Of a DNA stretch of 32,833 bases, positions 1,951 through 22,680 are shown piece after piece (the first letter of the stretch is position 1; each line of letters begins with the position of its first letter). Under the pieces are notes generated by a model. The model saw nothing but the letters and a program-made list of their open reading frames with translations, ran no database searches and had not been told where the DNA came from. The DNA is from Butyrivibrio sp. (GTDB lineage: Bacteria > Bacillota > Clostridia > Lachnospirales > Lachnospiraceae). The position numbers and the translations under genes were made by a program. The stretch covers positions 1 through 32,833 of the forward strand of contig JAFUYO010000006.1 in the NCBI GenBank assembly GCA_017470505.1, read 5' to 3'.

Positions 1951-1955
1951 AGAAG

Positions 1956-2241: not shown

Positions 2242-2281
2242 GCTTTTTGAAAAAATATTCAAAGGATCGCAGAGGAAAAAT

Positions 2282-3664: not shown

Positions 3665-3702
3665 AATCAGAATGCGGTTGCGTAAGCAACATGTTCCTGT
3701 TG

Positions 3703-3755
3703 AAAAAATACCTGCACAGCAATTCCCGATTGAGAACACTGTGCAGGTATTTTTT
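3703..3755. terminator. Bidirectional terminator between purF and amt
   Basis: A 17-bp perfect inverted repeat (3703-3719 and 3739-3755, core TACCTGCACAG/CTGTGCAGGTA) is flanked by an A-run on one side and a T-run on the other. It can end transcription of both convergent genes. Confidence 0.93.
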
Positions 3756-3762
3756 GTTTGTT

Positions 3763-5532
3763 TTATTCAACATCGGCAAGGGCTGCGGGGCCTTCCTCGC
3801 CGGTTCTTATCTTGACTACATTGTCGAGGCTGTATACGAAGATCTTTCCGTCGCCGATCTTTCCGGTGTAAAGAGTTCTTTTGGCGGCTTCTATAACATC
3901 TTCAACGGGAATCTTGCTCACAACCACTTCAAGCTTTATCTTGGGAAGGAGAGTCGCATCCATCTCAACTCCGCGGTACATGTCGCCTGAGCCCTTCTGA
4001 ACGCCGCAGCCCATTACCTGGGTGACCGTCATTCCGGTAACGCCGAGCTCGTTCATCGCTTTTCTCAGCTTGTCGTAGCGGGAGAGCTTTGCGATGATGA
4101 CAACCTTGTGGATCATGGAATCGCTGTGCACGGGAGAGCTCACAACCTTTACCGAGGCATCCCTCATCGTCTGGGACGCAGAGTCATAGTCGCTGATTCC
4201 AAGGTCGGTGTTGTCGTTTATGTCCATATTCAGGGTGTTTGAGATATCCATAATGGCAAATCCTGAATAGGCCGAGGCAAGACCGTGCTCTGTGGCGTCA
4301 AGACCTGTGATCTCCTCATCCTCTGTAACCCTGAGTCCAAGGATCGCCTTGATCGCATAGAAGGTTATAGTGATGGTGACAATTGTCCAGGCAGCTGTGG
4401 AGAGCATTCCCACGAGCTGGATCCCGAGGAGCTTAAGTCCTCCGCCATAGAAAAGACCTGTCATCTCATTTCCAAGGCTGTCTGCAATGGAGTAACCGGG
4501 GGCTGAGTTTGTGGCAAAGAGGCCAACCGCGATTGTACCCCAGATACCGTTGAGGCAGTGAACGGCAACTGCACCTACAGGATCGTCCACGTGGAGTTTG
4601 TAATCAAGGAACCACACACCAAAGCACACAAGGAGTCCTGCCACAATACCTATTATTATTGCGCCGAAAGCATCGGTCACATCGCAGGGAGCCGTGATAG
4701 CTACGAGGCCTGCAAGTGAAGCGTTGAGACACATTGAAACATCGGGCCTTTTGTACTTTATCCAGGTAAAGATCATGCAGGTCACAGTTGCCAGGGCGGG
4801 AGCAATTGTCGTTGTAACAAAGACGGATCCCAGCTGCTCAACAGAGGTGCAGGCTGCGCCGTTAAATCCGTACCAGCCGAGCCATAGGATAAAGACGCCG
4901 AGGGATGCTGCTACGAGGTTGTGCCCGGGAAAGGCGTTGACCTTGGTGACCTTTCCGCTCTTGTCCCTCTCAAACTTGCCGATCCTGGGTCCCAAAATCG
5001 CTGCGCCTATAAGTGCAGATATGCCGCCCACCATGTGAATACAGTTTGAGCCGGCAAAATCGTGAAAACCTATCCGGGACAGCCAGCCGCCGCCCCAGGT
5101 CCAGTGGGCTTCAATCGGGTAGATCACCGCTGAGATTACAGCCGAGTACACACAGTAAGATAAAAATTTTGTCCTCTCAGCCATGGAGCCTGACACGATG
5201 GTCGCGGTAGTCGCGCAGAATACCAGGTTAAACACGAAATTTGACCAGTCAAAGTTTGCGTAGTTTGTAAAAATATCAAATCCGGGCTTTCCTATTACGC
5301 CCATCAGGTCTTCACCCAGAAAAAGGCCAAAGCCTATAAGGATGAAAACGACAGTTCCGATACAGAAATCCATTAGGTTTTTCATAATGATGTTTCCGGT
5401 GTTCTTGGCTCTTGTAAAGCCTGCCTCGCACATTGCAAAGCCCGCCTGCATCCAGAAAACCAGGGCCGCACCCAAAAGAAACCATATTCCAAATACTTTT
5501 CCGTCAACCATGCTGATAATTTCTTCACTCAT
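3763..5532 (-). CDS. amt: Ammonium transporter fused to a C-terminal PII signalling domain
   Basis: A 589-residue membrane protein, against about 400-450 for ordinary Amt. Residues 1 to about 400 are the ammonium channel, with about 11 hydrophobic helices and the pore histidines in DFAGSNCIHMVGG and VAVHCLNGIWGT. After a polar linker, residues 473-589 form a complete PII (GlnB/GlnK) domain: MIHKVVIIAKL at its start, T-loop GCGVQKGSGDMYRGVEM, and the ATP-binding KIGDGKIFVYSLDNVVKIRT. In free PII proteins the T-loop binds Amt and blocks the pore according to 2-oxoglutarate and ATP/ADP; here the regulator is tethered. The uridylylated Tyr51 of the enteric T-loop is Met here. The start at 5532 is set by AGGAGGAG, 5 nt upstream. 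Confidence 0.95.
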   Translation of the reverse strand: MSEEIISMVDGKVFGIWFLLGAALVFWMQAGFAMCEAGFTRAKNTGNIIMKNLMDFCIGTVVFILIGFGLFLGEDLMGVIGKPGFDIFTNYANFDWSNFVFNLVFCATTATIVSGSMAERTKFLSYCVYSAVISAVIYPIEAHWTWGGGWLSRIGFHDFAGSNCIHMVGGISALIGAAILGPRIGKFERDKSGKVTKVNAFPGHNLVAASLGVFILWLGWYGFNGAACTSVEQLGSVFVTTTIAPALATVTCMIFTWIKYKRPDVSMCLNASLAGLVAITAPCDVTDAFGAIIIGIVAGLLVCFGVWFLDYKLHVDDPVGAVAVHCLNGIWGTIAVGLFATNSAPGYSIADSLGNEMTGLFYGGGLKLLGIQLVGMLSTAAWTIVTITITFYAIKAILGLRVTEDEEITGLDATEHGLASAYSGFAIMDISNTLNMDINDNTDLGISDYDSASQTMRDASVKVVSSPVHSDSMIHKVVIIAKLSRYDKLRKAMNELGVTGMTVTQVMGCGVQKGSGDMYRGVEMDATLLPKIKLEVVVSKIPVEDVIEAAKRTLYTGKIGDGKIFVYSLDNVVKIRTGEEGPAALADVE

Positions 5533-5554
5533 ATACACTCCTCCTGATCTTGGT

Positions 5555-5728
5555 CTTAAGGAGTACCGCTTGCGGCGGCAATCCTTAAAGAAGGGGCATC
5601 ATGCCGAATCCGACATGATGCCCCTTTGCATCCAATTATTTTTTGCTGCATGAGTATAAAACTTGTCCCGGGAAAAGAGAAAGCGCCTTGAAGATCAGAT
5701 GATCCTCAAGACGCCCTTGTCTTTATAG
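5555..5728 (-). promoter_or_regulatory. Structured leader of amt with three hairpins
   Basis: The transcript predicted to start near 5728 has a roughly 195-nt leader. Hairpin A (5714-5683) pairs GCGTCTTGAGGATC with GATCTTCAAGGCGC around ATCT and is followed by a pyrimidine-rich stretch. Hairpin B (5626-5591) has a perfect 13-bp stem AAGGGGCATCATG/CATGATGCCCCTT. Hairpin C (about 5588-5555) encloses CCGC-CGCAA-GCGG. Hairpins A or B could terminate transcription. The 5' arm of A matches the purF leader. No named RNA family was recognised. Confidence 0.6.
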
Positions 5729-5734
5729 ATTGAA

Positions 5735-5763
5735 ATTTTACTAGCAGGTTTTATTCTTGTCAA
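5735..5763 (-). promoter_or_regulatory. Promoter of amt
   Basis: Minus strand: -35 TTGACA (5763-5758), a 17-bp spacer and -10 TAAAAT (5740-5735). Confidence 0.8.
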
Positions 5764-5785
5764 GTACAAAAATAAAAATTCCACA

Positions 5786-6163
5786 TCACTTGTTCTGAGA
5801 CTTTTCTCTTTCTTTTTTCATAGCAAGGTATTTGGCCTTGATATCCTCGGGAACATCTAAATCAAGATCAATAAAATTCTCCATAATATAATCTTCAAGC
5901 TTTTGAAACTCATCATTCTGGTCTGGATCAGCGCCTAATACGTAAAGAGAGATTCCTAGTTCTTTGGCACGCTTTTCTCTGCGATCTGTGAATTCTCTGA
6001 GTTCATCAGTAATTTTAATGGGAGACTTATATGTACTTTTAGGTTTGGGCATAATATCATCGTCAGAGATGGTTTTAAAAGTCAGCGGCTTAAGCCTAAG
6101 GATAACTTCGTCTGTGATTTTCTGATCATCACTAAGACTATCGTTCAGTACTTCTTCTGTCAT
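5786..6163 (-). CDS. Hypothetical protein, 125 residues
   Basis: Function not recognised. The protein is hydrophilic and acidic, with no signal peptide, membrane segment or cysteine. It starts MTEEVLNDSLSDDQK, has a Lys/Pro-rich stretch in the middle (IMPKPKSTYKSPIK), a helical region with many Arg and Glu residues (ELREFTDRREKRAKELG), and a charged Lys/Glu tail. The start at 6163 was chosen because AAGGGAG lies just upstream and a TATAAT box lies about 20 nt further up. A longer in-frame reading from 6220 (MTLSSYE...) would require translation through that box. The 30-bp stretch encoding MTLSSYE recurs at 1715-1744, so it may be part of a shared upstream element instead of coding sequence. 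Confidence 0.65.
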   Translation of the reverse strand: MTEEVLNDSLSDDQKITDEVILRLKPLTFKTISDDDIMPKPKSTYKSPIKITDELREFTDRREKRAKELGISLYVLGADPDQNDEFQKLEDYIMENFIDLDLDVPEDIKAKYLAMKKEREKSQNK

Positions 6164-6197
6164 AAAGCTCCCTTCTTTGGCTTTATTATACCATTCT

Positions 6198-6227
6198 TTC
6201 TCATATGAAGACAGAGTCACTTGTTGA
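6198..6227. repeat. 30-bp repeat also present at 1715-1744
   Basis: The block TTCTCATATGAAGACAGAGT and the following ten bases recur at 1715-1744 with one mismatch. Here it lies immediately upstream of the hypothetical gene that starts at 6163. Confidence 0.9.
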
Positions 6228-6332
6228 TTTGAAGGATATCCTTAACAGAGCATGTCAGACAAATGCTGCGCCGGATGTACAAAACAAATCTATACACACA
6301 CATACACACAGAAATCTTGAATTTTGGACAAA

Positions 6333-6376
6333 TAAAAAACTCCGAAACGCCCATGAATACTAGGCATTTCGGAATT
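6333..6376 (-). terminator. Terminator of the second tRNA-Gly
   Basis: An imperfect stem of about 12 bp (TTCCGAAATGCC with GGCGTTTCGGAG on the minus strand) is followed by a T-run. Its sequence differs from the terminator of tRNA-Gly copy 1. Confidence 0.85.
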
Positions 6377-6386
6377 TAATTAGGCG

Positions 6387-6459
6387 AGCGATAGACGGGG
6401 CTCGAACCCGCGGTCTCGACCTTGGCAAGGTCGCGCGTTACCAACTACGCCACTATCGC
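6387..6459 (-). tRNA. tRNA-Gly (anticodon GCC), copy 2
   Basis: Identical over all 73 nt to the gene at 1956-2028, with loop TTGCCAA, discriminator T and no encoded CCA. Its promoter and terminator sequences differ from those of copy 1, so the identity is confined to the tRNA and one or two flanking bases. Confidence 0.97.
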
Positions 6460-6495
6460 ATTTATGTCACAACAATTAATTGCGACAACGAATTG

Positions 6496-6524
6496 ATTTT
6501 AGACTAAAAATGCGGTATTGTCAA
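6496..6524 (-). promoter_or_regulatory. Promoter of tRNA-Gly copy 2
   Basis: Minus strand: -35 TTGACA (6524-6519), a 17-bp spacer and -10 TAAAAT (6501-6496). Confidence 0.75.
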
Positions 6525-6551
6525 CATGTATTTAAAAAATGGTGAAAAAAT

Positions 6552-6672
6552 GCAGAATGATTTTTCAAAGGCAAGGAAGAAAACGTAGACAATGCGGGCA
6601 TTGTTAAGGCTCTTGACGCAGCATTTAGGAAATCAGGCAAGTAAAATGTTCAAGTTATTTCGCTACAGTTCC
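6552..6672 (+). repeat. ERIC-like inverted-repeat element, copy 1 (left end missing)
   Basis: These 121 bp match the reverse complement of the copy at the window end (32697-32833) with two differences. The right terminus GCTACAGTTCC is intact and the left terminal repeat is missing. The core contains the hairpin ACAATG-CGGG-CATTGT. The element ends 8 bp before the ribosome binding site of the methyltransferase gene, so it is probably transcribed as part of that leader. Confidence 0.9.
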
Positions 6673-6696
6673 TAACGGGTAGGAGAGGAAAGAAGA

Positions 6697-8094
6697 ATGG
6701 CAGCAGCAGTACTTAAAAGGGGCGCAGGCAGGGAGTTTAAGGCGGGCGGCCCGTGGATATATGACAATGAGGTGGACAGAGTAGAAGGCTCTTTTGAAAA
6801 CGGAGATGTGGTAGAGCTGCATGACTTTGACGGCTTTTTTCTGGGGTATGGGATTATCAACGTAAGGTCCAAAATCCGCGTCAGGATCATGTCGCGTAAA
6901 AGAGAGCACCCCATTACGGAAGAGCTGATAGGGCGCAGGGTGAAGGATGCCTGGGAGCACAGGAAGCAGATCATGGTCGGCTATGTGCACCAGTTTCTGC
7001 TCTCAGGCAGCACTATATTTGATGGCGGAGAACCGGATGCGAGCATAGATGAATCAGATGGCAGAGGATCAGATCAGGCCGTAGATATAAAAGCAGCTCC
7101 CGATATAAACGGAGAGGTGCTTAATAATACCGATTGCTCGGGAAGCAGGGGAGTAAGTTCAATGGCGGATGCCTACAAGAGGCTGTCGTGCCGCCTCATT
7201 TTCGGGGAGGCGGACTTTCTGCCGGGGATAACCATCGACAAGTTCTCAGACGTCCTTGTCATTGAATCACTGGCTCTTGGTACCGACAGGATGAAGGAGC
7301 TTATCATCGATAAGTGCAAAAAAGTTCTGGCAGAGGACGGCGTCATTATCCGCGGCGTCTACGAGAGGAGCGACGCCAAGGTGCGCGAGCTCGAGGGACT
7401 TGAGAGGACCAAGGGCTTTATCGGAGAGCCCTTCGACACAAAAGTATTAATAGAAGAGAACGGCGTGAAATACTTCGTCGATGTGGAGAACGGCCAGAAG
7501 ACGGGCTTTTTCCTGGACCAGAAGTTCAACAGGCAGGCCATCGGGCTTATCTGCAGGGGCAAAAAAGTTCTGGACTGCTTCACGCACACCGGCTCGTTTG
7601 CCCTGAATGCGGCAGCAGGAGGCGCGGTGTCGGTCCTCGGAGTTGACGCATCGGACCTTGGCTGTGAGCAGGCGCGTGAAAATGCCGCGCTCAACGGCTT
7701 TGAAAAGACAGTGACCTTTAAGTGCGCTGATGTGTTTGAGCTGCTTCCTGAGCTTGAAAGAAAGGGCGAGCAGTTCGACGTTGTCATCCTGGACCCACCG
7801 GCGTTTACCAAGTCGAGAGCTTCAATTAAGAAAGCGGTCACGGGCTACAAGGAGATCAACCTGCGCGGTATGCGTCTTGTGAAGGATGGTGGGTACCTTG
7901 CAACCTGCTCCTGCTCGCACTTCATGGACGAGGAGCTCTTTTTGAAGACGATAGCGGATGCTGCGAGGGACGCACACAAGCGCCTTAAGCAGGTCGAGTT
8001 CAGGCAGCAGGCCATGGATCATCCGATCCTCTGGGGCGGCTCATCATCATATTACCTGAAGTTCGTGATCTTCCAGGTATGCGACGAGATGTAA
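6697..8094 (+). CDS. Class I SAM-dependent rRNA methyltransferase, RlmI family
   Basis: Members of this family (RlmI/YccW) methylate C5 of a cytosine in 23S rRNA. The protein has 465 residues, against about 395 for typical members. Residues 1-80 look like the PUA RNA-binding domain (GRVF-type start: KRGAGREFKAGGPWIYDNEV). The catalytic half has the SAM-binding motif VLDCFTHTGSFALNAAAGG near residue 290, the DPPAFTKSR motif near 365 and CSCSHF near 405. The extra length is an acidic, low-complexity insert at about residues 104-154 (DGGEPDASIDESDGRG onward), between the PUA domain and the linker domain. The start is set by AGGAGAGG at 6681-6688. An ERIC-like repeat lies directly upstream. The rRNA target in this organism is inferred from family only. 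Confidence 0.88.
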   Translation: MAAAVLKRGAGREFKAGGPWIYDNEVDRVEGSFENGDVVELHDFDGFFLGYGIINVRSKIRVRIMSRKREHPITEELIGRRVKDAWEHRKQIMVGYVHQFLLSGSTIFDGGEPDASIDESDGRGSDQAVDIKAAPDINGEVLNNTDCSGSRGVSSMADAYKRLSCRLIFGEADFLPGITIDKFSDVLVIESLALGTDRMKELIIDKCKKVLAEDGVIIRGVYERSDAKVRELEGLERTKGFIGEPFDTKVLIEENGVKYFVDVENGQKTGFFLDQKFNRQAIGLICRGKKVLDCFTHTGSFALNAAAGGAVSVLGVDASDLGCEQARENAALNGFEKTVTFKCADVFELLPELERKGEQFDVVILDPPAFTKSRASIKKAVTGYKEINLRGMRLVKDGGYLATCSCSHFMDEELFLKTIADAARDAHKRLKQVEFRQQAMDHPILWGGSSSYYLKFVIFQVCDEM

Positions 8095-8131
8095 GAACCT
8101 GGAAAGGTTGAAAACACTGATGTGTATCATC

Positions 8132-8161
8132 TTGTAATAGGCCGACATGGTATTTTATAAT
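8132..8161 (+). promoter_or_regulatory. Promoter of the small gene at 8208
   Basis: -35 TTGTAA (8132-8137), an 18-bp spacer and -10 TATAAT (8156-8161). Confidence 0.6.
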
Positions 8162-8207
8162 ACGGTTAGAAGTAAAAACCGATATACTTACTGAGGAGGT
8201 GATATAT

Positions 8208-8383
8208 ATGACAGCTACAGCTGAAACACTCCGCAAATTAGATTCATTGAGTGAACAAGACTTTAACATGATAGTTAGCCTGACAGACTTAGCATATCAC
8301 AGGGAAAAGACAGTGATATTGAGGCATTCAGACAGATCAGAAAGCGTACATCTCAAAGTCCTATGACAGAAGATGTATTATGA
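8208..8383 (+). pseudogene. Small frameshifted gene, antitoxin-like in size and style
   Basis: A very strong ribosome binding site (GAGGAGGTGAT) precedes ATG 8208, which opens MTATAETLRKLDSLSEQDF and continues to about AYHREK near 8310. A one-base shift there restores a convincing second half, DIEAFRQIRKR then TSQSPMTEDVL, ending at TGA 8381-8383. Without the shift the frame ends in an implausible basic tail at 8364-8366. The intact form would be about 58 residues. Short helical proteins of this type next to their own promoter are often antitoxins, but no partner toxin is adjacent and the family was not identified. A sequencing error at the A-run is an alternative to real decay. Confidence 0.6.
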
Positions 8384-8391
8384 GGAGAGAT

Positions 8392-8856
8392 ATGACAGAC
8401 TACAGATTACTGGCGCAGCAATTAAGAGTACTTGCGGAGGATGAGCCGCATTTCTTGCCGGTCTTATCGAACGCATCGGCGCTCATAAATGAGAACATGG
8501 AGGACCTCAACTGGGCGGGTTTCTACCTTATGAATAAGGGCTCGCTCCTGTTGGGCCCCTTCCAGGGGAAGGTCGCCTGCATCAGGATTGAGCTCGGGAA
8601 GGGCGTCTGTGGAACAGCAGCAGAGCGGGACGAGACGCAGCTTGTTGCAAACGTCCACGAGTTTGCAGGCCACATCGCCTGCGACAGCGCATCCAACTCA
8701 GAGATCGTCGTCCCGATCCACTTTGGCGGCAAAGTAATCGGCGTCCTCGACATCGACAGCCCAAGCCTTGCCCGCTTTTCCGAGGAAGACCGGGATGGCC
8801 TCGAGCTCTTCGTGAGAACCCTCGAAGAAGTCACCGATTTCAGCGGATTTACCTGA
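8392..8856 (+). CDS. msrC: Free methionine-(R)-sulfoxide reductase, GAF domain
   Basis: Reduces free methionine-R-sulfoxide and so protects against oxidative damage in the cytoplasm. The 154-residue protein is a single GAF domain, the usual size for fRMsr (YebR/MsrC). The active-site signature is complete: VACIRIELGKGVCGTAA around residues 60-76 and HIACDSASNSEIVVPI around 93-108, giving the three cysteines used in catalysis and disulfide exchange. The start at 8392 is preferred because GAGGAGAG ends a few bases upstream; an earlier ATG at 8380 overlaps the stop of the preceding frameshifted gene and lacks its own site. The two genes are therefore in one unit under the promoter at 8132. A strong terminator follows. 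Confidence 0.92.
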   Translation: MTDYRLLAQQLRVLAEDEPHFLPVLSNASALINENMEDLNWAGFYLMNKGSLLLGPFQGKVACIRIELGKGVCGTAAERDETQLVANVHEFAGHIACDSASNSEIVVPIHFGGKVIGVLDIDSPSLARFSEEDRDGLELFVRTLEEVTDFSGFT

Positions 8857-8866
8857 TACATTTTCC

Positions 8867-8904
8867 ATCCCTCACTGTCAGGACAGTGAGGGATGTACTT
8901 TTTT
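8867..8904 (+). terminator. Terminator after msrC
   Basis: A perfect 13-bp stem ATCCCTCACTGTC/GACAGTGAGGGAT with a 2-nt spacer, then T6 at about 8898-8903. Confidence 0.93.
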
Positions 8905-9004
8905 ATACTAAATTTATAAAAAATAATTTCCAAAGTGTTAGAATTATCGTAACTATATATATGGAAAGATAGACTTGATTTTTTTCAGGAACGGAGTGTA
9001 CAGC

Positions 9005-12000
9005 ATGGATTCTAACGGCTTAAACAAAGAACTTCAAAAATTTGCTTCAAAGGACAGACAGGTATTGCCAAATCTGAACAATCCACTTGATATGGATTCG
9101 GTGAACAATATCTTAAGCCAGGAGCATTACGTCCCCAAAAAGAGGGATTCTTTTGGCGACAATGACATGAGAAGGCTGGAGGAAGAAAACCTGGCAATCG
9201 ACGGCCTCATTGGCAAGATTGAGACGGGGAGTCTTAAGTATAACGAGTCCGAACTCAAAAAAGAGCTGTTAGAGGCCAAAAAAGGGCGAAACATCTCTCA
9301 GATCCTGCTTAATTCCAAGAAGTTCTGGGGTGACAGCGAGAAGATGGACAATCTCAAAAATGCTCTGTCAAAGCTTGAGCGCTGGATGGGATATGAAAAC
9401 CATAGTGAGATCGATGAGAAGACCTATGACAAGCTGTGCAAATTATATACAGATGCGATAGGTGAGTGTGAGAAGTATATAAACGGCAAGAATCCCTGGC
9501 TTTCCACCGGCAAAAAGAGGATGGAGAGGGTTAAGGCTACTTATGCCAACCTCAAGAGGGAAATGGAGCAGCTCGACTACGCGTGGGAGGTCTACTCGGA
9601 AAACAAGGAGAGAAGGACCGATGACGAAAAGGAGCACCGGATAAACAGCGGAGTAGCTCTTTTGCAGTACGGCAGGCTCGCGAAGGTCGTAAATGATGAG
9701 ATGATAGGCACAACCCGGAGCGATATAAAGAGGACCGAGGAGGCTCTCAAAATTGCTCAGGATTATTTTGATGCGGCAAAGCTCTTCTGCGATACGGACT
9801 ACGAAAAATTAAGAGAGAGAAAGACGAAGGAGAAGGAAGAGCAGGAAAAGGCCAAGAAAGCCGAGAAGGAGAGAAAGAAGAAAGAAAGAGAAGAGGCGAG
9901 AAAGAACCTCCCGGAGGGAGGAGAGATAGAGGATGAAGACGACGAGGAAGAAGAGGAGGAGAGCACCTTCTCCTGGTTTTTGGGCTTTATCCAGGGGAGG
10001 GATGAACTCAAATACGACAAGGACGTTCAGGAGGCTGAGAAGGAGCGCGACCGAAGAAGGCAGCAGACTAATTATGATCAGAGAAAACAGAACGTAGAAA
10101 ACCTTCAGAAGAGGCTCGATGAGCTGAAGAAGCAGGAGTCTGAGCTCGACAAAAAGGCAGATGAGGAGGAAAAAAACGACAAGAGGCGTTCCGAGCTAAA
10201 GCGCCGTGAGAGCAGGGAGAATGCCGGAAGAAACCTGGAAAAGCTCCCTGACGCACTTAAGGAGCTGGTTGGTCTCATAAACGATAACACTGCGCTCTCA
10301 GACAAATTCAAAGATAAGAAAAAGCTTAATAACGAGGACAAAGAGTTTGTCAGGGACATGGTGGCGTTTAAGGATGCGCTCGCTGATTTTGCTGATGGAA
10401 AGGCCATGTCCAGGATCTTTAATATGGGCGGTAATACAGCCAGGATCTATCAGGACAGGTTTGGAAACCTTTCTCTTCGCTATGGCGATAACAGCGTCAG
10501 TCTCAAAGGAAACGGGCATGAGCTCTTTTCCTCGATATCGAGGGACATTGTCTTTAACGCGAAGCTGTACGGCGAGGATGCAGCTCTTAATGTGATGCAG
10601 CAGATGCCTGACAGGATCAGGGAAATGGACGCCTCGGACCTCATCAATATAAGGGAATTTGCAGCTGAAATCCTGCACAGGCATCTCGGAGTGCGAAAGG
10701 GGAACTTGGGCAACATCCCGGTAGAGGATCTTAAGCGCTTCGCAGAGCATAGCTATGATGTGATCGGCAATAAAACCGCGCTCGAGAATTTGCGCAGGGA
10801 AATAGACCAGAGGGGCAAACAGAAGAACGGGCAGATCAATTCTGTGCTCAATCAGGAGCTTCACAGGGTTATGGACTCATCTGACAACGTTGTGTTCCTT
10901 AAGCAGGATGAGCCTGACAAGGGCGGCTGGAGTGATGATGAGTACAAGGTCAGGGAGTTCCTCGCAGATCTTTTCTATTCAAGTGACACCTGGAGCACCG
11001 AGAACGAGAGTACATCAGCTGAGGACAAGCTGAAGGAGATAATCCGGAAGAATTCTGAAGCTGTCGCCATTATCTTAAGCGAGCAGTTTAAGAAAAACCC
11101 TCTCAGAAAGAAAGGCGCAAAAAAAGACAATACCCCCGGAATCCTCGACAACATGCTCGATTCCATGGGTCTTTTTGAAGAGCCCAAAAAAGAGGGCGAT
11201 TTGGATGTCAAAAAGCTTATAAGCACCAATATAAACAGCATCTGTGACACTGTCTACAAGACCGTTATGGGAGATGAGAAGGCAAGTGAGGACGACTTTA
11301 GGGTTCAGATGATGCAGACCCCGCAGATCCTTGGTAACATCATAAAGTCTAATTACAAAAAGATCCCCGGCGAGTCACTCACAGACCTGGCGACGACGAT
11401 CGATGAGACCGTTAAGAGGGCGATGGACGAGGTTCAGGGGAAGTTTGAGAAGTGCATTGACAAGATCTTTTCAGATGAGGGACAGGAAGGTGGTTCAAAG
11501 CGCCTTCAGAAGGGCGATAAGTGGGTTCCCACCGTGCTCTTTGAGATTGAAGAAGTTCAGAAACAGATAAATGAGTCCAGGGGCCTCAGTGAAGAACAGG
11601 CCAAAAAAGAACTTGAAGTCAAAAGGAAATACAACATCGCAAAAAATACGGTTGCCCGGCTCGATAATGAGTATTTTAAACCGGGTCTTACCAAAGATGA
11701 AAAGGACAAACTCGATAAAAAATATAAAGCGGCAGTAGAAAAAGAAACAGCTCTGAAAAAGCAGCTTGATGAATTTAAAAAGATTGATGCAGAGGAAAAT
11801 AAAGAGAAAAATAAAGTTAAGGTTGATACGTACAAGCTTGTCTCGAAGAAAAGCAAGTTGGTCGGAGAGACAACCAGGTGGGATGACAATGAAGATGGCG
11901 ATATAACGAAAAAATACGAATCGATCCTCAAGGAAAACAGAGCTAATGAGAAGAATCGGAAAAACGACCCCAAATATGCGGAGGCAGAGCAGTTTAAAAA

Positions 12001-15000
12001 GGACAAAAAGCGCTTTGATGAAGCTCTTTTGAAATACAACAAGACTCTGCCTGCTGAAATAGAGAAAGCTGAAAAAGAAAAGAATGCGAAGGAGGCAAGG
12101 AAACTTAAAAGGAAATACGACCAGCTCGGAGAGTGGATCAATTCGAACAGCGATGCGATAAAGGCGGGAATGAAGAAGCAGCGCATGGCTGAAATAGAAG
12201 AGCGCATAGATTACCGCAAGAAGAATATGTACAGCTCAAAGGAGCTGGATAATCTCATTCTGAAAAAGGCGCATCATGAAAATAAGCTGGCCAAGCTGAA
12301 GGATAGAATTGCAAAAAGAGATTATAAAACAGATAAAAAGCACACACCTGAGGGTGATAAGGCAAAGATTTCGGAATTTAACAAACAGATTACAACGGAT
12401 GAAAAGAACATAAAGCATAAGAAGCTTGAGCTTGAAAAGGCTGAGCTCAATAAGATCCTCGGCGATGCCGTAAAGGGCAAACAGGGACAGGGTCTTTTTA
12501 CAAAGAATGTACTTAGGACCTACTTTAAGAGCATGCCGATAACCGAGCAGCGCTCAATGGTCGCAGGAGCACTTCGCAACATGAAGAACGGCAAGGCTGT
12601 ACGTAAGGCGGGTGCCGACGATATGGATGAGATGAGTGACATCTTAGGCGGCATGTTCAAGGGGGCAGGACCTCTTTTCCAGAAGATGCTGCAGGGTATT
12701 CCGACGCAGGAGCTTCCCGAGGGGCTTAAGAAAGCAATTTCCGATACGCAGGATTCGCTCGCCCCGATCCCTGAGGAGGTTGTAAAGAACCACTTAAAGA
12801 GCATCATAAAGAGAAGCTCAAATAAGATCGAGAGGATAGAGGTTGTAAACTCACTCGGTGCTGCATCCGTCGGACAGGCATTTCTGTGCAGGGTTTACGG
12901 ACCTGCATTTGCTGAGGGCAAAAACGTCGTTGTGAAGCTCCTGCGTCCCGATGTCAGACAGAAGATGGAGCGCGAGAAACAGATAATGCTCAGTGCTGCG
13001 AAGATGACCGACAGGGATGGAATGACTCCCGCTGAGATCAGGGAGATGGAGGACAGCAAGAGGATAGGCGGCATGGAGGCCACTTACCTCGGGAACCTTA
13101 AGAGGATCGAGGAGGAGCTGGACCTCAATATAGAGGTTGAGAACTGCAAAAAGGGTGCGATATACGACAAGAAGATAGAAGGAAGCAAAGAGGAGAACCT
13201 CTGCACATCGATGAAGATGAGCGACCTCGCAGAGCCCACGAGCGACTCCTGCATCATGGAGATCGCCGGAAACAAGACCCTGAAGAGATATATCGCAGAA
13301 CTTAATGACAAGATGGCCTCTCTTGAGAAGTACTTTGAGACAGATACCGATGAAAAGGGGAAAAAGCTTCTCAGGACGACAGAAAAAGGCGAGCTTGTGC
13401 TGAAAAAGAATCTTGGAGCCGAAGCTTATTTAGAGATTGAGTCTATAAAAAAAGATCTTGAAAAGGGCCTTGCTGATGCTAAGGAGAGGCAGAAGGGGCT
13501 TTTGCAGCTCTCCGAGAAGTGGGTAACGGAAGGAATTTATGAGAAGGGCTATTACCACGGCGACCTTCACGCCGGTAATATCATGGTCGGCGAGAAGGGC
13601 ATTACCGTAATTGATTTTGGTAATGCGACAGAGCTCGATTCGACGCAGCAGAAGTATGTAATCAGGATGATGGCGGCAGCTGCCATGGGCGAAGTGGAGA
13701 TGTTCCGCTCAAGCTTCCATGCTCTTTTGCAGAACACGCCTGAGGAGGTCTATCAGTCAAAGAGGGATGAGCTGACCCTTGCACTCAAGGAAGTCCTCAA
13801 AATGGGCAACGCCTCATCCACGGGAGAGCGCATAGCCGTTGCGCTCACAAAGGCCCAGGAACTCGGACTCGAGCTGCCGCCTGTTGTTGCGAATTTCTCA
13901 TCGGGCCAGCTCCGGTTGCAGAACACGGTCACTGATATGAACAACATGCTAAAGAGCCTTCAGAATACCTGCAAGCTGCTCTCGCATACAGAGCTTCAAA
14001 GAGACAGGTACCAGGAAAAAATAGATCTTGTGTACAGCGGATTAGGGCATGCAAAGAAGTTAGATGACATTCTGCTCGCGAAGGCCAGAGTAGCCGGTAA
14101 TCTAAAGCGGTATGACCTTATTACAGAAGAGAGCTTTAAAAAGGAGCTCAATGAGGCTACCGATACAAAGGCTTTTTGCGAAAAGCACAGGATCGACCGG
14201 GGGCTGTCTGAGGAAAAGGAGAGACTGAACCGGATACTCAGGCATGAAGAGTATTTTACCTATGAAGAAGAGACTAATATACATATTAATGTCGACGGCG
14301 TCGGGTTAAAAAAGGCATTTCCAAAGTTGTACGAATTCGTACAGGGTACTTCTCTGGGTCAGGCCAGCCTGGTGGGGAGCGTATTTGACTACCTTGCCAT
14401 GATGGTAAGAGACCGCATGGAGTATAAAGCCGGCAGCGCGGGAGCGTACATACTTAACAGAAGCCGCGTCATGAAAGACCCTAAAGAAGATAAGGCGGCA
14501 GTGGGCACTGAGAGACTTGGCGCGCCGCTAAATGGCTTTAAAAACAAAGATCCCAAAGCCAAAAATGCCACAAAATGGGAGAAGAAGTATTTTAACTCGG
14601 TCGATGAGCTTATAGCGTATATCCGTGAAAATGACGAAAAAGCCGTAAAAGGGTGGAGAGATGCAAAGACGCTCATTCCTGAAAAAGAGGAAGATGGCGA
14701 CGGAATCTACAGTAAGATAGATAAGCTTATTGAGGATAAGAAAAATAAGAAGATCAGCAAAGAAGAGTATGATAAGAGCACAGGACAGATATGGGAGGAG
14801 TATAAAGTAAGCATTCTTGAGGAGGCCAATAGTGAGGCTCATTCGGTAAGAGAACAGTTTTTAAAGGATATGAAGAAAATATATCCTGTTGATACAAAAG
14901 GAAAAATAAGAGAAAATCTCCCCGAAAGGTTTAACAGATTTAAGCTCGCTCTTGAGAATATCTATACATACAATGACTCTGCGGAATTTAAGAAAAGAGG

Positions 15001-15331
15001 GCAGGAGATGCTCTCAGAATATGAAAAGTGCCTGAAAGATACTCATTATGCTGAAAGTAATGCGAAGGCGATCCGGAAGAAGTTTAATGAATTTTCAGTG
15101 CTGATGCTGGATAATGCAGTTATTGCGACCAAGAACCTGAGCGAAAAACTTACGAAGAATGATATTAAAAACGTAAATAAATATGACACCGCAGTAAAAC
15201 CCAAGGATTTCCTCGATGTCATGGGCGGTGTTATAGACAAGTACCTGACCAGAACCTTCTTCCAGCTCGGAATAAAGGGCAACTACAAGGCACGCAAAGC
15301 GCTTAAGAAAAGCGGGGTGGTCATCAAATGA
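9005..15331 (+). CDS. Giant coiled-coil protein with embedded UbiB/ABC1 kinase-like domain
   Basis: A 2108-residue protein, several times longer than normal UbiB/AarF proteins (about 500). Residues 1 to about 1200 are highly charged and mostly coiled-coil in character, with a run of acidic residues near 305-325 (EDEDDEEEEEE). The UbiB-like region spans about 1210-1600. It has GPLFQKMLQ near 1222, corresponding to the KxGQ motif but without its Gly. It also has the Ala-rich loop LGAASVGQAFLCRV near 1280, the lysine in VVVKLLRP near 1309, ELDLNIEVENC near 1372, the catalytic loop YYHGDLHAGNIMV near 1515 and the metal-binding VIDFGNA near 1535. Key kinase/ATPase residues are therefore present. 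About 500 further residues follow. No signal peptide or clear membrane span is visible. The start at 9005 uses GGAG at 8993-8996. The ATG of the next gene overlaps its stop. Substrate and role are unknown. Confidence 0.85.
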   Translation: MDSNGLNKELQKFASKDRQVLPNLNNPLDMDSVNNILSQEHYVPKKRDSFGDNDMRRLEEENLAIDGLIGKIETGSLKYNESELKKELLEAKKGRNISQILLNSKKFWGDSEKMDNLKNALSKLERWMGYENHSEIDEKTYDKLCKLYTDAIGECEKYINGKNPWLSTGKKRMERVKATYANLKREMEQLDYAWEVYSENKERRTDDEKEHRINSGVALLQYGRLAKVVNDEMIGTTRSDIKRTEEALKIAQDYFDAAKLFCDTDYEKLRERKTKEKEEQEKAKKAEKERKKKEREEARKNLPEGGEIEDEDDEEEEEESTFSWFLGFIQGRDELKYDKDVQEAEKERDRRRQQTNYDQRKQNVENLQKRLDELKKQESELDKKADEEEKNDKRRSELKRRESRENAGRNLEKLPDALKELVGLINDNTALSDKFKDKKKLNNEDKEFVRDMVAFKDALADFADGKAMSRIFNMGGNTARIYQDRFGNLSLRYGDNSVSLKGNGHELFSSISRDIVFNAKLYGEDAALNVMQQMPDRIREMDASDLINIREFAAEILHRHLGVRKGNLGNIPVEDLKRFAEHSYDVIGNKTALENLRREIDQRGKQKNGQINSVLNQELHRVMDSSDNVVFLKQDEPDKGGWSDDEYKVREFLADLFYSSDTWSTENESTSAEDKLKEIIRKNSEAVAIILSEQFKKNPLRKKGAKKDNTPGILDNMLDSMGLFEEPKKEGDLDVKKLISTNINSICDTVYKTVMGDEKASEDDFRVQMMQTPQILGNIIKSNYKKIPGESLTDLATTIDETVKRAMDEVQGKFEKCIDKIFSDEGQEGGSKRLQKGDKWVPTVLFEIEEVQKQINESRGLSEEQAKKELEVKRKYNIAKNTVARLDNEYFKPGLTKDEKDKLDKKYKAAVEKETALKKQLDEFKKIDAEENKEKNKVKVDTYKLVSKKSKLVGETTRWDDNEDGDITKKYESILKENRANEKNRKNDPKYAEAEQFKKDKKRFDEALLKYNKTLPAEIEKAEKEKNAKEARKLKRKYDQLGEWINSNSDAIKAGMKKQRMAEIEERIDYRKKNMYSSKELDNLILKKAHHENKLAKLKDRIAKRDYKTDKKHTPEGDKAKISEFNKQITTDEKNIKHKKLELEKAELNKILGDAVKGKQGQGLFTKNVLRTYFKSMPITEQRSMVAGALRNMKNGKAVRKAGADDMDEMSDILGGMFKGAGPLFQKMLQGIPTQELPEGLKKAISDTQDSLAPIPEEVVKNHLKSIIKRSSNKIERIEVVNSLGAASVGQAFLCRVYGPAFAEGKNVVVKLLRPDVRQKMEREKQIMLSAAKMTDRDGMTPAEIREMEDSKRIGGMEATYLGNLKRIEEELDLNIEVENCKKGAIYDKKIEGSKEENLCTSMKMSDLAEPTSDSCIMEIAGNKTLKRYIAELNDKMASLEKYFETDTDEKGKKLLRTTEKGELVLKKNLGAEAYLEIESIKKDLEKGLADAKERQKGLLQLSEKWVTEGIYEKGYYHGDLHAGNIMVGEKGITVIDFGNATELDSTQQKYVIRMMAAAAMGEVEMFRSSFHALLQNTPEEVYQSKRDELTLALKEVLKMGNASSTGERIAVALTKAQELGLELPPVVANFSSGQLRLQNTVTDMNNMLKSLQNTCKLLSHTELQRDRYQEKIDLVYSGLGHAKKLDDILLAKARVAGNLKRYDLITEESFKKELNEATDTKAFCEKHRIDRGLSEEKERLNRILRHEEYFTYEEETNIHINVDGVGLKKAFPKLYEFVQGTSLGQASLVGSVFDYLAMMVRDRMEYKAGSAGAYILNRSRVMKDPKEDKAAVGTERLGAPLNGFKNKDPKAKNATKWEKKYFNSVDELIAYIRENDEKAVKGWRDAKTLIPEKEEDGDGIYSKIDKLIEDKKNKKISKEEYDKSTGQIWEEYKVSILEEANSEAHSVREQFLKDMKKIYPVDTKGKIRENLPERFNRFKLALENIYTYNDSAEFKKRGQEMLSEYEKCLKDTHYAESNAKAIRKKFNEFSVLMLDNAVIATKNLSEKLTKNDIKNVNKYDTAVKPKDFLDVMGGVIDKYLTRTFFQLGIKGNYKARKALKKSGVVIK

Positions 15332-16632
15332 TGAAGCTGGTAAAGCTTGACAATAAAAGTGCAGAGCTGTTTCGGGAGCTGGATCCCTTTGACTATCTGC
15401 ACGGGCAGGGGGCATTTCCGACCTTTGCCCTTGGATGCGTCAACGAGAGCGATGTGATGGATGAACCTGCGGGGCTTGTTATCTGCTACCGCGACAGGTC
15501 TGTACTTGTTGTGAGGTGGATATTTGCAGAGCCCTGGTACAGGGGACGGGGCGTCAGTGATATGCTCCTCTCAGCGGTTTTTGAGATAGCACGAAATGAA
15601 GGCGCAGAGTACGTTGGAGCACTTCTCTCCAATGAGTACGGAAGGGAAGAAGTGTGTCCCGATGAGGAAGCTTTTTTCAGCTTCCTCGGGTTTGACAGGA
15701 TCATCTCGACAGGGGACGGAAGGGCGCGGCTCCTCCTTGCGCCGGTGACAGAGTCTGATGAAGATGACGATAGCACTCTGGATGACGGAGAGCAGTCGCT
15801 GTTTGATTTCAGCTTTGATGTGGTGGCAGCAGATGATGGCGACATTGATGAAGATGGTGTTTGGGACGAAGATGGAGACGCCGGTGAAGGTGGTGCTTTA
15901 GGAGAAGAGGGCGTTTTAGATAGTGATGGCGAAGATGTAGATAGTGACGCAGGCAGAGAAGGTTTCGGAGGAGCCGGCACAGATGGGCAGGACTTCGGAG
16001 GACGTGGCTTTGGCGGTGCCGGAGGCGACGGTGCATACAGAGAAGGCTTAGGCGGACATGACGCAGGCAGAGGAGACGGCCTTGCAAGAGCCGGGAAGTA
16101 TAGTGCAGGCATAGAAATTCGCAGAGCCGGAAAGTATCGCAGAGGCGGGAAGAGAGAGATTCAGGATTCGGACATCCATATAGTGGCGGGCGACGTCTTC
16201 GGGCGAGACCTTCTGATGAGGCAGGAGAGTGATGACAGGACGGAAATTGCCAGCATAGGCGATATCACCCTTCCGATGCTGGGCGATGGCTTAAAGCGCT
16301 GCAGCAAAGTGACTAAGGAGAGCGCCTATGGAGAGGTGGTCAGGGAAATCCCGGTCTCTTACTTTAACGAGAGGCTCTCTGCCTGCGCTATCTCAAATGG
16401 CGCAGTGACGGGCTTATTTCTGGTTCATGAGGAGGAAGGAAGGCTCTACCCTGAGTATCTGTGTGCCTGCGGCTCCGACTCCCGCACCCAGTGCAAGCTC
16501 ATGCTACGGCACGCCGCAAAAGTTCTCAGGGATAACTACCCCGAGGATACACAGATAATCGTCCGCTGCCGCGACGACGTCACAAGGGAGCAGGTGGAAA
16601 GGCTGTTTTCTATGGGGGAGACAGCTCATTAA
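15328..16632 (+). CDS. GNAT-like acetyltransferase with long Asp/Gly-rich linker
   Basis: A 434-residue protein starting at ATG 15328, overlapping the stop of the giant kinase-like gene (ATGA), so the two are very likely translationally coupled. Residues 1 to about 140 form a GNAT domain: WIFAEPWYRGRGVSDMLLSA contains the acetyl-CoA pyrophosphate-binding RGRGVS, followed by EIARNEGAEYVGALLS and FFSFLGFDRI. Residues about 150-265 are a low-complexity linker rich in Asp, Glu and Gly (repeats such as FGGAG and FGGRGFGGAGGDG). The C-terminal 160 residues look like a second, degenerate GNAT-like half (AVTGLFLVHEEEGRLYPEYL, then CKLMLRHAAKVL). The acceptor of the acetyl group is unknown; the giant protein is an obvious candidate partner by inference. 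No terminator was found directly after the gene; the dyad repeat at 16671 may serve. Confidence 0.75.
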   Translation: MMKLVKLDNKSAELFRELDPFDYLHGQGAFPTFALGCVNESDVMDEPAGLVICYRDRSVLVVRWIFAEPWYRGRGVSDMLLSAVFEIARNEGAEYVGALLSNEYGREEVCPDEEAFFSFLGFDRIISTGDGRARLLLAPVTESDEDDDSTLDDGEQSLFDFSFDVVAADDGDIDEDGVWDEDGDAGEGGALGEEGVLDSDGEDVDSDAGREGFGGAGTDGQDFGGRGFGGAGGDGAYREGLGGHDAGRGDGLARAGKYSAGIEIRRAGKYRRGGKREIQDSDIHIVAGDVFGRDLLMRQESDDRTEIASIGDITLPMLGDGLKRCSKVTKESAYGEVVREIPVSYFNERLSACAISNGAVTGLFLVHEEEGRLYPEYLCACGSDSRTQCKLMLRHAAKVLRDNYPEDTQIIVRCRDDVTREQVERLFSMGETAH

Positions 16633-16670
16633 ATTGGGGATTTGTCGTTATTTGCGGTGTTCATTAAAAT

Positions 16671-16845
16671 TTTGACCCTTTTGGGGCATTTTTGGATGGT
16701 TTTTTTACCCTGTTTTTCACTATTAGCGGTCTGATTTTATTTTTGACCCTTTATTTGGCCTTTTAGGGGTCAAATTTTTCCTGAATAGTCAAATAGTGAA
16801 AAAGTCACTTGAAAACAGGCTTTTTGTGAGGGCAAAAGGGTCAAA
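16671..16845. repeat. 175-bp AT-rich dyad repeat, copy A
   Basis: Nested inverted repeats: outer TTTGACCC (16671) with GGGTCAAA (16838), middle TCACTATT (16717) with AATAGTGA (16792), inner TTTGACCC (16742) with GGGTCAAA (16767). A second copy at 31184-31358 has every one of these words, or a near match, at the same offset. The two copies differ widely elsewhere. No ORF is present. Confidence 0.88.
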
Positions 16846-16864
16846 AATCAAACAGGCGCTTCAC

Positions 16865-16893
16865 TTGCATATTTTTGATGAAGGTAGTAGAAT
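16865..16893 (+). promoter_or_regulatory. Promoter of the ileS T-box transcript
   Basis: -35 TTGCAT (16865-16870), a 17-bp spacer and -10 TAGAAT (16888-16893), about 20 bp before the T-box begins. Confidence 0.7.
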
Positions 16894-16914
16894 CTCTTTT
16901 AAGTGAATAGAAAA

Positions 16915-20757: not shown

Positions 20758-22680
20758 TTACTGAAGGAGCGAGAGTACTCCCTGGTTTGTCTGATTCGCC
20801 TGTGCCAGCATCGACTGACCTGCCTGTGCGAGGATATTGTTGTTGGAGTACTTCACCATCTCTTTTGCCATGTCGGTGTCGCGTATGATTGATTCAGCCT
20901 GCTGCGTGTTCTCGACTACGTTGCCGAGATTATTGTAGGTGTGCTCCATCCTGTTCTGGTACGAACCAAAAACTGCTCTCTGCTCGTCAACTATGCGCTT
21001 TGCTTCTTTGGTCTGAACGATGCCCTTCTGGGCGTTTGTTGAAGTAAGTGTGTTGAGATCGTTGATCCCGAGCGAGTGGTTGTTGAGTACGTCGTAGATG
21101 ATCGGGATTATGTTGTCATTATTTCCCTCAGAACCCGCCTGGATGTTCAGCGCCATCGTCCCGCCGTAGACAGGGGCGTCGTAGGTGCTTGCATTGGAGT
21201 TATAGAGATACATGCTCCCTGCACTATTGGGAGAATTAAGTTCCACTCCTGTGATATTTGCTATTCGCTGTATCACCTGTTCGGTAGTCTCGTCCGCCCC
21301 GACATTCATATTTATATCAAAATATCCAATACTCGTAACTGCATCGCCTGTGGTACTTCCGTTTGTATAGTTAACAGCACTGTCTGCTGTCAGATTTAGT
21401 CTGATTGAAATGGTTCCGCCATTCGCGCTGAAATTAGTTAATGAATCATGGTAATTATGATCTGCTGTTCCATCCAGCTGGCTCTTTATGACTGCGGCCA
21501 GATCAGATGCATTCGAAGCTCCGTGCCCATGCTGATATGTATGCCCGTTAGAATCGGTGTTCCACCATATTCCCTTAGTCTCAGGCCTCTTGTCGCTTGA
21601 ATATGTAGCCACATATCCTGTTGATGAAGCTGTAACACCGAATGTAGAAGGCGTTGCAGGAGTGGTATTTGAATCCTTGGTGAAAGTGAAACTATACCCC
21701 ATTTTTGTTGTATCTGAACTATCCGAAGAATCTCTGTTGGAAGAACTGCCATCAATATGGTCTGTTGCCGGATTTTCAAGAGTTCCGCTTACCAGTGCTG
21801 CGTTGTAATGTAACACTCCTGAAATATATGAATTGCTGTCTCCTGCTACACTTCCAGATAGAGAATAGTCTTTGTAGAAGCTAACACCTGAGTTGTTTAT
21901 AGCGCTTATAAACTGTGACATGGTAGCATCTTCATCCAGCTTTACAGATAAATTCGGGTTAATGCCTACCGCATTGGGATACTGGTTATAATCCATATTG
22001 GAGCTGTTTAATGAAAAACTGAATCCGCTCGACTTAAGCTCTTCTTCACTCGGCCATGCATTTTTTTTGCTGGAATAATTGACTCCGTCAAAGCCTGTCC
22101 AGCTGACTGTCACACCATCACTGTCTGCAGAAAAATTGAACCGGCCGTTCTTGGGCCATGCACCCCTGTTAGTATCTGTAATTGTGTTAGAGTATCCGTA
22201 TCCATTGTTTCCCCAGGTAAAGATAGGTCTTTTCTCAGTCCCGATCTGTTTTCTGTCTGTTGTGTGCTCGTCCCAGATGAGCTTTTCGTTGAAAGAGGTT
22301 GTTCCAAAGGTTCTGTTGCTCTCTACCTTGAGCTGCTGGATTTCGGCGTCGATGGCTGCGCGGTCTTCGTCGGTGAGGGTCTCCGTTGCGGCCTTGATGC
22401 AGAGCTCATTCATGCGGTTGAGCATCTCATCGATCTCAGCAAGAGCTGCATCAGCAACCTGAACGTAGGAGATTCCGTCCTGAACGTTCTCGGAGGCCTG
22501 CGAGAGCCCTCTTATCTGTCTTCTCATTTTTTCGGAAATGGAAAGTCCTGCTGCGTCATCTGCAGCGCGATTTATCTTATATCCGGACGACAGCTTCTCT
22601 GATGACCTTGCCTGAAGGCCGGTCGTTATTCCAAGCTGCCTGTTAGAATTAAATGCCGTAAGGTTGTGCTGTATTATCAT
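20758..22680 (-). CDS. Flagellin 1
   Basis: Structural protein of the flagellar filament, exported by the flagellar type III apparatus without a cleaved signal. It has 640 residues, longer than simple flagellins (about 275-500). The conserved D0/D1 N-terminus (MIIQHNLTAFNSNRQLGI, SSEKLSSGYKINRAADDAAG) occupies residues 1-140. The D1/D0 C-terminus (RDTDMAKEMVKYSNNNILAQ, then GQSMLAQANQTNQGVLSLLQ) occupies about the last 75. The roughly 420-residue middle is Ser/Thr/Asn/Gly-rich and variable, as expected for the surface-exposed part. The start at 22680 is preceded by AGAAGG. A SigD-type promoter and two CsrA-type hairpins lie upstream. One Cys occurs in the conserved N-terminal domain (NELCIKAA), unusual for a filament protein. 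Confidence 0.96.
   Translation of the reverse strand: MIIQHNLTAFNSNRQLGITTGLQARSSEKLSSGYKINRAADDAAGLSISEKMRRQIRGLSQASENVQDGISYVQVADAALAEIDEMLNRMNELCIKAATETLTDEDRAAIDAEIQQLKVESNRTFGTTSFNEKLIWDEHTTDRKQIGTEKRPIFTWGNNGYGYSNTITDTNRGAWPKNGRFNFSADSDGVTVSWTGFDGVNYSSKKNAWPSEEELKSSGFSFSLNSSNMDYNQYPNAVGINPNLSVKLDEDATMSQFISAINNSGVSFYKDYSLSGSVAGDSNSYISGVLHYNAALVSGTLENPATDHIDGSSSNRDSSDSSDTTKMGYSFTFTKDSNTTPATPSTFGVTASSTGYVATYSSDKRPETKGIWWNTDSNGHTYQHGHGASNASDLAAVIKSQLDGTADHNYHDSLTNFSANGGTISIRLNLTADSAVNYTNGSTTGDAVTSIGYFDINMNVGADETTEQVIQRIANITGVELNSPNSAGSMYLYNSNASTYDAPVYGGTMALNIQAGSEGNNDNIIPIIYDVLNNHSLGINDLNTLTSTNAQKGIVQTKEAKRIVDEQRAVFGSYQNRMEHTYNNLGNVVENTQQAESIIRDTDMAKEMVKYSNNNILAQAGQSMLAQANQTNQGVLSLLQ

Follow-up and report, generated by a model that had tools for sequence, protein, structure and literature searches.

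Giant and GNAT proteins of the locus

We analysed a stretch of Butyrivibrio sp. DNA of 32,833 nucleotides (contig JAFUYO010000006.1 of assembly GCA_017470505.1; the window hereafter), in which two overlapping genes encode a giant protein with a UbiB-type kinase-like domain and a predicted tandem GNAT protein. Genes were called as greedy open reading frames (ORFs), with starts as called. The giant gene lies at 9005..15331 on the forward strand and encodes 2108 residues counted from its ATG, an assignment supported by Pfam, NCBIfam and homologues; an in-frame TTG at 8975 provides an alternative start that would add 10 residues. The GNAT gene (15328..16632, forward strand, 434 residues; ORF, Pfam and structural model) overlaps the giant ORF by 4 nucleotides. 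A first-pass annotation, made from the sequence alone, had reported both frames and their overlap, and these were verified.

The giant scored 55.5 bits against the Pfam ABC1 model (PF03109, cut-off 22.9), placing its predicted UbiB/ABC1 domain above the curated family threshold, and 88.8 bits over two stretches against the NCBIfam UbiB model TIGR01982, whose equivalog cut-off of 487.55 was not reached. Profiles, together with a fold model of a compact, 1354-residue relative (L033), delimited a kinase-like domain at 12458..13993 (forward strand) that includes the KxGQ-type N-terminal helices, and the model predicted the UbiB-specific fold with these helices present. The annotation had pointed to residues 1200–1650 for profile searches; the domain spans approximately residues 1152–1663. 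All of the sequence motifs it had listed were in place on the forward strand, namely the Ala-rich loop LGAASVGQ (residues 1284–1291, 12854..12877), the ATP-binding lysine K1311, the catalytic loop HGDLHAGN (1518–1525, 13556..13579) and the metal-binding IDFGN (1536–1540, 13610..13624). When residue conservation was scored over 84 non-duplicate UbiB-giant domains, the window's included, A1287, K1311, E1371, E1377, H1518, D1520, H1522, G1524, N1525, D1537, G1539 and N1540 were invariant (84/84), so that the loss of catalytic residues among homologues, which the annotation had named as a point that would speak against it, was not observed. The ExD aspartate D1373 was kept in 81 of the 84 domains, the DFG aromatic position was F in 73 and Y in 11, and the Ala-rich loop read GAAS across the family with few exceptions.

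The available text of one study describes the KxGQ motif as UbiB-specific (PMC7877690), and we found it in 16/16 ordinary UbiBs taken from genomes elsewhere in the phylum. Profile-profile comparison of ordinary UbiBs with the giant family by hhalign (probability 99.7, E 2.9e-26) aligned residues 1227–1230 of the window giant, KMLQ, to KxGQ with no gaps, K1227 and Q1230 falling on its K and Q and L1229 on its Gly. The ordinary profile was built on 14 of the 16 sequences; the two missed by the motif filter were rechecked and also read KxGQ. In this register, which places the equivalent site in KGAGPLFQKMLQ (12659..12694, forward strand), K and Q were each retained in 84/84 domains and the Gly position was L in 57, M in 26, V in 1 and Gly in none, so the Gly loss that the annotation had noticed is family-wide. 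An alternative register (HMMER against one PDB chain, with KxGQ on KGAGP) was set aside for the gap-free alignment. The case for KMLQ as the KxGQ equivalent is, on these alignments, strong but not final.

We also compared hydrophobic segments. No segment with mean hydropathy above 1.6 over 19 residues occurred in 88 of 89 giant frames, a set that includes duplicates and truncated frames, whereas ordinary UbiBs had hydrophobic C-terminal segments in 16/16 cases, with peaks of 1.98–2.94. The duplicate loci L042, L058 and L085 (equal to L014–L016) are inside the 89 frames and outside the 84-domain, pair, neighbour and cluster counts. We class the UbiB domain of the giants as a divergent member of the UbiB fold without two features, the Gly and the anchor. 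In the portions of PMC7263595 consulted, the COQ8A Ala-rich-loop mutation A339G is said to increase autophosphorylation, and protein kinase activity in trans is reportedly undemonstrated for UbiB, Coq8 and COQ8A.

Across the 89 frames the usual module order was N1 (~130 residues), N2, N3, UbiB (~500 residues) and a C-terminal tail, with additional subgroup-specific inserts; length ranged from 1354 to 2740 residues in the 58 non-duplicate closed frames with N1. On the forward strand of the window, profiles placed the helical module N1, which also occurs in giants without UbiB, at 9179..9586, and the conserved modules N2 and N3 at 10331..10840 and 10688..11500, overlapping by their profile bounds. 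A variable insert between N3 and UbiB (11501..12457) clustered with the closest relative, L020, only, and clustering and segment searches defined a variable, subgroup-specific tail at 13994..15328. Segment profile searches found N1 to N3 again in most relatives; segments of the window's tail matched few, two relatives at the outset and, once the search was iterated, as many as 21 for the last segment. Inserts and tails clustered by subgroup, and a Pfam scan of ten of them gave nothing above cut-off. The earlier description of the giant as mostly coiled-coil proved too simple, since the conserved regions of a modelled relative are predicted to be mainly helical with a small beta part ahead of the kinase. 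The structural alignment list (VIA-align) barely covers residues 1–420 of the L033 model, and we make no fold claim for N1–N3. One giant (L055) carries a calpain domain preceding N1, besides UbiB (E 1.5e-14). At locus L173, a 3412-residue giant with an N1-like match (1136-11374, reverse strand) adjoins a 2113-residue UbiB giant, and neither stands directly beside a GNAT.

The GNAT protein scored 26.6 bits against Pfam Acetyltransf_1 (PF00583, cut-off 20.7), and only GNAT models matched it in Pfam. In its structural model a linker of low confidence connects a GNAT-type domain to a second, putative one, a layout in keeping with the two-domain protein and Asp/Gly-rich linker first described. On the forward strand, domain 1 (Pfam and model), with the acetyl-CoA-loop-like RGRGVS, spans 15328..15747, the Asp/Gly-rich linker, mostly of low model confidence, 15748..16167 (sequence and model), and the GNAT-like domain 2, which only the model shows, 16174..16617. 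The model confirmed a predicted GNAT fold for domain 1, with protein N-terminal acetyltransferases as its nearest structures. For domain 2, the secondary structure of residues 283–426 was GNAT-compatible, and whole-chain Foldseek matches to tandem GNATs reached template-modelling (TM) scores of only 0.2–0.3. At the acetyl-CoA loop, R/Q-x-x-G-x-G/A, where the window protein reads RGRGVS, 44 GNATs encoded downstream of giants had R in 35 (Q in 2), the middle G in 26 and G or A at the last position in 42.

Pairing with the GNAT family and variable enzyme heads

Searches with an iterated GNAT profile revealed 66 adjacent same-strand pairs of GNAT and UbiB giant, with the GNAT downstream in 44 and upstream in 22 and a spacing of at most 60 nucleotides in 62. 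Among 50 complete giants with both neighbours complete, the GNAT was adjacent in 43, within two genes in 46 and absent in 4; for all 84 giants, contig ends included, it was adjacent in 54 and within two genes in 59. GNAT-profile matches lay at least four genes away in 12 of 230 cases. In a less selected, family-wide sample counted by hand, a GNAT stood within two genes at 11 of 16 UbiB-giant places. The annotation had held that a GNAT neighbour lacking in most genomes would undo its reading; most giants in both samples have one. Across the 397 genomes of that family-wide sample, 8 matched the GNAT profile at E 1e-10, which is a lower bound because only some candidates were scored per genome, and a UbiB giant was also present in 7 of these. 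The eighth genome (G150) holds a 179-residue frame (L169 1138-1677, reverse strand) in which the start of a GNAT is joined to an N2 fragment (E 6e-15) and which, by eye, also seems to contain part of the KGAGPLLQK helix; from its sequence this frame seems to be the relic of a pair that decayed together. Furthermore, distances between UbiB domains correlated with those between the downstream GNATs (Pearson 0.64, 39 pairs), and none of 999 permutations was as high.

GNATs of this family were also found beside other large proteins. The window genome has six GNAT-profile places (E 1e-5), and 8 of the 11 genomes searched have at least one. We read 20 regions covering 23 of 35 places; L133, L142 and L143 duplicate earlier loci and were excluded from the neighbour count. 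In the remaining regions 20 of 27 GNATs had a same-strand ORF of 700 residues or more as a neighbour, directly or via a run of GNATs, against 75 of 451 other genes of 150–550 residues over all loci, and most of the large ORFs next to GNATs in these regions were without UbiB. Pfam scans of 17 large proteins gave matches above cut-off to calpain (L138, 2.8e-6), Fam20C (L136, 3.4e-6) and PI3_PI4_kinase (L137, 2.9e-6) and a sub-cut-off match to HipA_C (L141, 1.7e-4); 12 had nothing above cut-off. A candidate at L148 12904-16536 was rejected as a family member, being a surface-adhesin-like protein. Local, iterated profiles built from the three kinase-type matches each recovered 12–13 proteins, and these sets overlapped largely, so the kinase-type giants look like one kind; the equivalent calpain profile recovered 7.

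Among 90 large ORFs adjacent to GNATs, 54 were UbiB giants. Single linkage joined nineteen of the other 36 into one cluster, in which calpain, HipA/Fam20-type and unassigned giants occur, several of them carrying N1. Five more formed a cluster, mostly with hydrophobic stretches, and are perhaps membrane proteins; one was the window's isoleucyl-tRNA synthetase gene (ileS), a chance neighbour. Judged by sequence comparison, what stays the same is the GNAT together with parts of the platform, and what differs is the enzyme head, UbiB being one of several putative heads.

Two further observations were made in these regions. Locus L136 (6826-19993, forward strand) contains a row of four N1 giants of 793–991 residues with HipA/Fam20C-type kinase matches and two GNATs. 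The window genome encodes more non-UbiB giants near family GNATs, of 2146 residues at L130 10164-16604, 1816 residues at L131 3018-8468 and 1295 residues at L129 9387-13274 (all reverse strand); at L131 a 105-residue ORF separates giant and GNAT.

Distribution, divergence and genomic setting

With the window giant as query, relatives were found in at least 6 of 299 genomes of its taxonomic family, its own genome counted. A single-sequence scan of the species-representative collection with the same protein confirmed no relative; an alignment scan of that collection succeeded, and the UbiB-region profile A1 recovered 247, of which the best 80 (76 loci) formed our locus sample. The titles of these loci were mostly Lachnospiraceae or Butyrivibrio, a few giving only Clostridiales, Eubacterium or bacterium, and the relatives include the isolates Butyrivibrio sp. 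FCS014 (69% identity over the UbiB domain) and Lachnospiraceae bacterium XBB2008. A herbivore gut site was named in 22 of the 76 titles (21 ruminant, 1 horse) and other hosts in none; many remaining titles carry RUG-type names, which we take to be rumen genomes. Profile A1 matched at least 10 of 397 genomes in the family-wide sample, indicating a patchy presence, and 2 of 398 in a phylum-wide sample, both belonging to the same family as the window. In several cases three or four loci came from a single metagenome-assembled genome (MAG), for example L042, L058, L067 and L086 from RUG12564. The window genome has a single UbiB-giant copy; A1 gave no further one, and three other ABC1-profile places in it look, by eye, like Ser/Thr kinases. 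An ordinary UbiB went unmatched in this genome of 84% estimated completeness (TIGR01982, E 1e-30), and 76 of 119 sampled genomes of the phylum had a match.

The ratio of non-synonymous to synonymous substitution rates for UbiB was 0.08–0.19 in the five calculable pairs of seven, and the non-synonymous proportion was higher in the tail than in UbiB in 7/7 pairs. At L025 (10912-16952) and L027 (10462-16502), a non-UbiB giant of unassigned content had 94% DNA identity, whereas the UbiB giant and GNAT were only 73–78% identical. This contrast between the sequences suggests mosaic exchange, and a recent transfer of the non-UbiB giant is possible.

The flanking genes of the window pair are ordinary, with a GAF protein upstream and ileS downstream. 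The pair lies in a variable slot (8770..16908), for which blastn gave no match at the syntenic position in a congener (G207). Besides the giant and GNAT genes, the slot takes in spacers and the 3′ end of the GAF gene. The congener does match the window in the GAF gene and in the stretch ahead of ileS, and other genes fill the equivalent of the slot; the GAF protein is still 83% identical in its slot-covered 3′ part. The window giant had no match at E 1e-5 among 50,697 phage and 72,556 plasmid records. A phage or plasmid origin was rejected, as no record matched and two viral-contig matches were short kinase fragments.

Elsewhere, the window encodes an ammonium transporter with a fused C-terminal P-II regulator domain (3763-5538, reverse strand; PF00909 at residues 18–420, PF00543 at 477–581), two tRNA-Gly(gcc) genes (1955-2028 and 6386-6459, reverse strand) separated by ~4.4 kb, and a divergent pair of flagellin genes (20758-22680, reverse strand, 640 residues; 23036-24469, forward strand, 477 residues) whose products are 60% alike over the first 149 residues and 57% over the last 133.

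Proposed function and alternative explanations

We propose that giant and GNAT could form a two-component protein-modification unit of a polymorphic system, a reading that we regard as quite possible though short of probable. Its basis in the sequences is the N1–N2–N3 platform, the intact UbiB-type ATP site, the lack of a detected anchor, the subgroup-specific tail and a GNAT of one family, which, in several cases together with N1, also accompanies HipA/Fam20C-type kinase and calpain heads. The giant would be a soluble enzyme that uses ATP to transfer phosphate or AMP to a protein, and its variable inserts and tail would choose that protein. With K and Q kept, the missing Gly of KxGQ may seat the inhibitory helices differently on the active site and favour transfer over ATPase cycling. 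The GNAT would acetylate its partner giant, which is lysine-rich, or the giant's target, thereby arming or restraining the giant. Because the GNAT is indifferent to the chemistry of the head, it would act on shared parts of the giants and not on a kinase substrate, and its constancy beside kinase and protease giants appears to fit modification or control of the giant better than the phospho/acetyl pair on a shared target that had been suggested. A role outside quinone biosynthesis, also raised in the annotation, is favoured by the lack of an anchor, the modules shared with giants bearing other enzymes and the patchy presence; as a whole, its interpretation is partly supported. Patchiness, multiplication and interchangeable enzymes suggest an arsenal for biological conflict, with phages, rivals or grazing protozoa, and not metabolism. 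More broadly, and more doubtfully, Lachnospiraceae of the herbivore gut might possess an undescribed polymorphic arsenal of giant enzymes of the cytosol that share one helical platform, in which heads (UbiB kinase, HipA/Fam20C/PI3K-like kinase, calpain protease) are swapped, a cognate tandem GNAT switches each on or off, and UbiB, once a lipid-linked ATPase, has become a protein-modifying enzyme in conflict.

Several observations weigh against the protein-modification unit. The GNAT profile was iterated using the giants' own neighbours, and the 84-domain sample holds the best matches only, hence the additional count of 16 places. Five of these 16 (G160, G328, G351:C34, G129:C85 and the first G129:C96 copy) lacked a GNAT within two genes. 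Of the five, the two in G129 sit where a contig ends or sequence is masked, and neither G160 nor G328 had any GNAT-profile match (E 1e-5), so certain divergent giants do without a GNAT of this profile. Conversely, 22 of 124 GNATs had no large neighbour though away from contig ends. The distance correlation is inflated by shared ancestry, and faulty assembly could account for the G150 relic. Many GNATs have an imperfect acetyl-CoA loop, with R in 14 of 22 and the middle G in 15 of 22 of the upstream set, beside the middle G in 26 of 44 downstream. No export signal was seen in the giants and no immunity gene was identified at the loci. EssB/YukC, the only secretion marker searched, was above cut-off in 0 of 11 genomes, with one weak match in G207 (2.9e-4) and a positive Bacillus subtilis control, leaving delivery by a type VIIb secretion system unsupported.

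The imperfect loop bears on another explanation, in which the GNAT is a chaperone, inhibitor or immunity partner, a GNAT-fold binder that silences a harmful giant enzyme. A binder of a shared module would likewise be expected with chemically different heads, and UbiB and GNAT distances co-vary; yet the downstream GNATs retain the loop R (35/44) and last-position G/A (42/44), N1 is undetected in some GNAT-linked giants, so that the shared contact is putative, and some giants have no nearby GNAT. We consider this explanation unlikely, though one to be taken seriously. A chromosomal anti-phage or abortive-response system, in which the giant senses infection via its variable regions and modifies a host protein, would agree with the patchy presence, the several MAGs that have three or four loci, a slot-like replacement flanked by housekeeping genes, mosaic identity and the lack of a detected membrane anchor; but no PADLOC family matched the three proteins scanned (E 0.01), and Pfam scans revealed no nuclease, pore or known sensor domain, and we rate it as distinctly unlikely.

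That the giants are effectors against rumen protozoa or other eukaryotes, acting following uptake or lysis, looks improbable. Locus titles that name a host site (22 of 76) all name the herbivore gut, the heads are eukaryote-like (calpain, Fam20C/PI3-4K-like kinases) and Legionella VipF is among the Foldseek matches of the tandem GNAT, but the host association could reflect ecology alone, VipF is one of many GNAT matches with low TM, and neither an export signal nor, with the one marker searched, a secretion system was identified. Least of all do we expect a large UbiB that still serves isoprenoid or quinone lipids and whose giant part is a scaffold. The UbiB fold, Ala-rich loop and catalytic set are present, but the hydrophobic C-terminal segments of ordinary UbiBs are missing in 88 of 89 giant frames, several genomes have multiple divergent copies and the GNAT family is common to non-UbiB giants.

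The giants resemble the UbiB/COQ8/ABC1 atypical kinases in fold, Ala-rich loop, ATP lysine, ExD, catalytic loop, DFG and the K and Q of KxGQ, and differ from them in the Gly, the detected anchor, their size, their scores far under the equivalog cut-off and the GNAT link. Tandem GNATs such as that of the clavulanate cluster (2wpw), the Clostridium acetobutylicum glucosamine N-acetyltransferase (5kf1) and VipF have two GNAT domains per chain, as is predicted for the window protein, whose whole-chain matches to them have low TM; the window protein differs in its long Asp/Gly-rich linker, its N-terminal-acetyltransferase-like first domain and its giant neighbour. In RTX toxins a giant protein is encoded beside a dedicated activating acyltransferase of the HlyC type. 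The likeness is one of layout; the window giant has no RTX repeats (Pfam, up to E 1), and the heads are enzymatic. Polymorphic toxin and effector systems place interchangeable catalytic domains on a shared platform, diverge fast, and are patchy and multiplied. The giants share the platform with swapped heads, fast divergence, patchiness and multiplication, and differ in that no export signal or classical immunity gene was found and the catalytic head is internal. The annotation knew of no described system with this layout, and no characterised family covering the full length was found in Pfam, PADLOC or NCBIfam (seven proteins scanned in the last). No publication on a giant/GNAT system was found in the open PMC literature, the scope of that search being without subscription papers and preprints. 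We regard the giant/GNAT system as new and apparently undescribed.

These loci expose a large coding load without known function in herbivore gut bacteria, since the genes measure 4–8 kb or longer and some MAGs have several. They would also be a natural experiment on the UbiB fold, in which the anchor and the UbiB-specific Gly were dropped and the checked catalytic residues retained, and they make the question of whether UbiB domains act as protein kinases directly testable. If the protein-modification reading is true, one acetyltransferase family would partner several unrelated giant enzymes.

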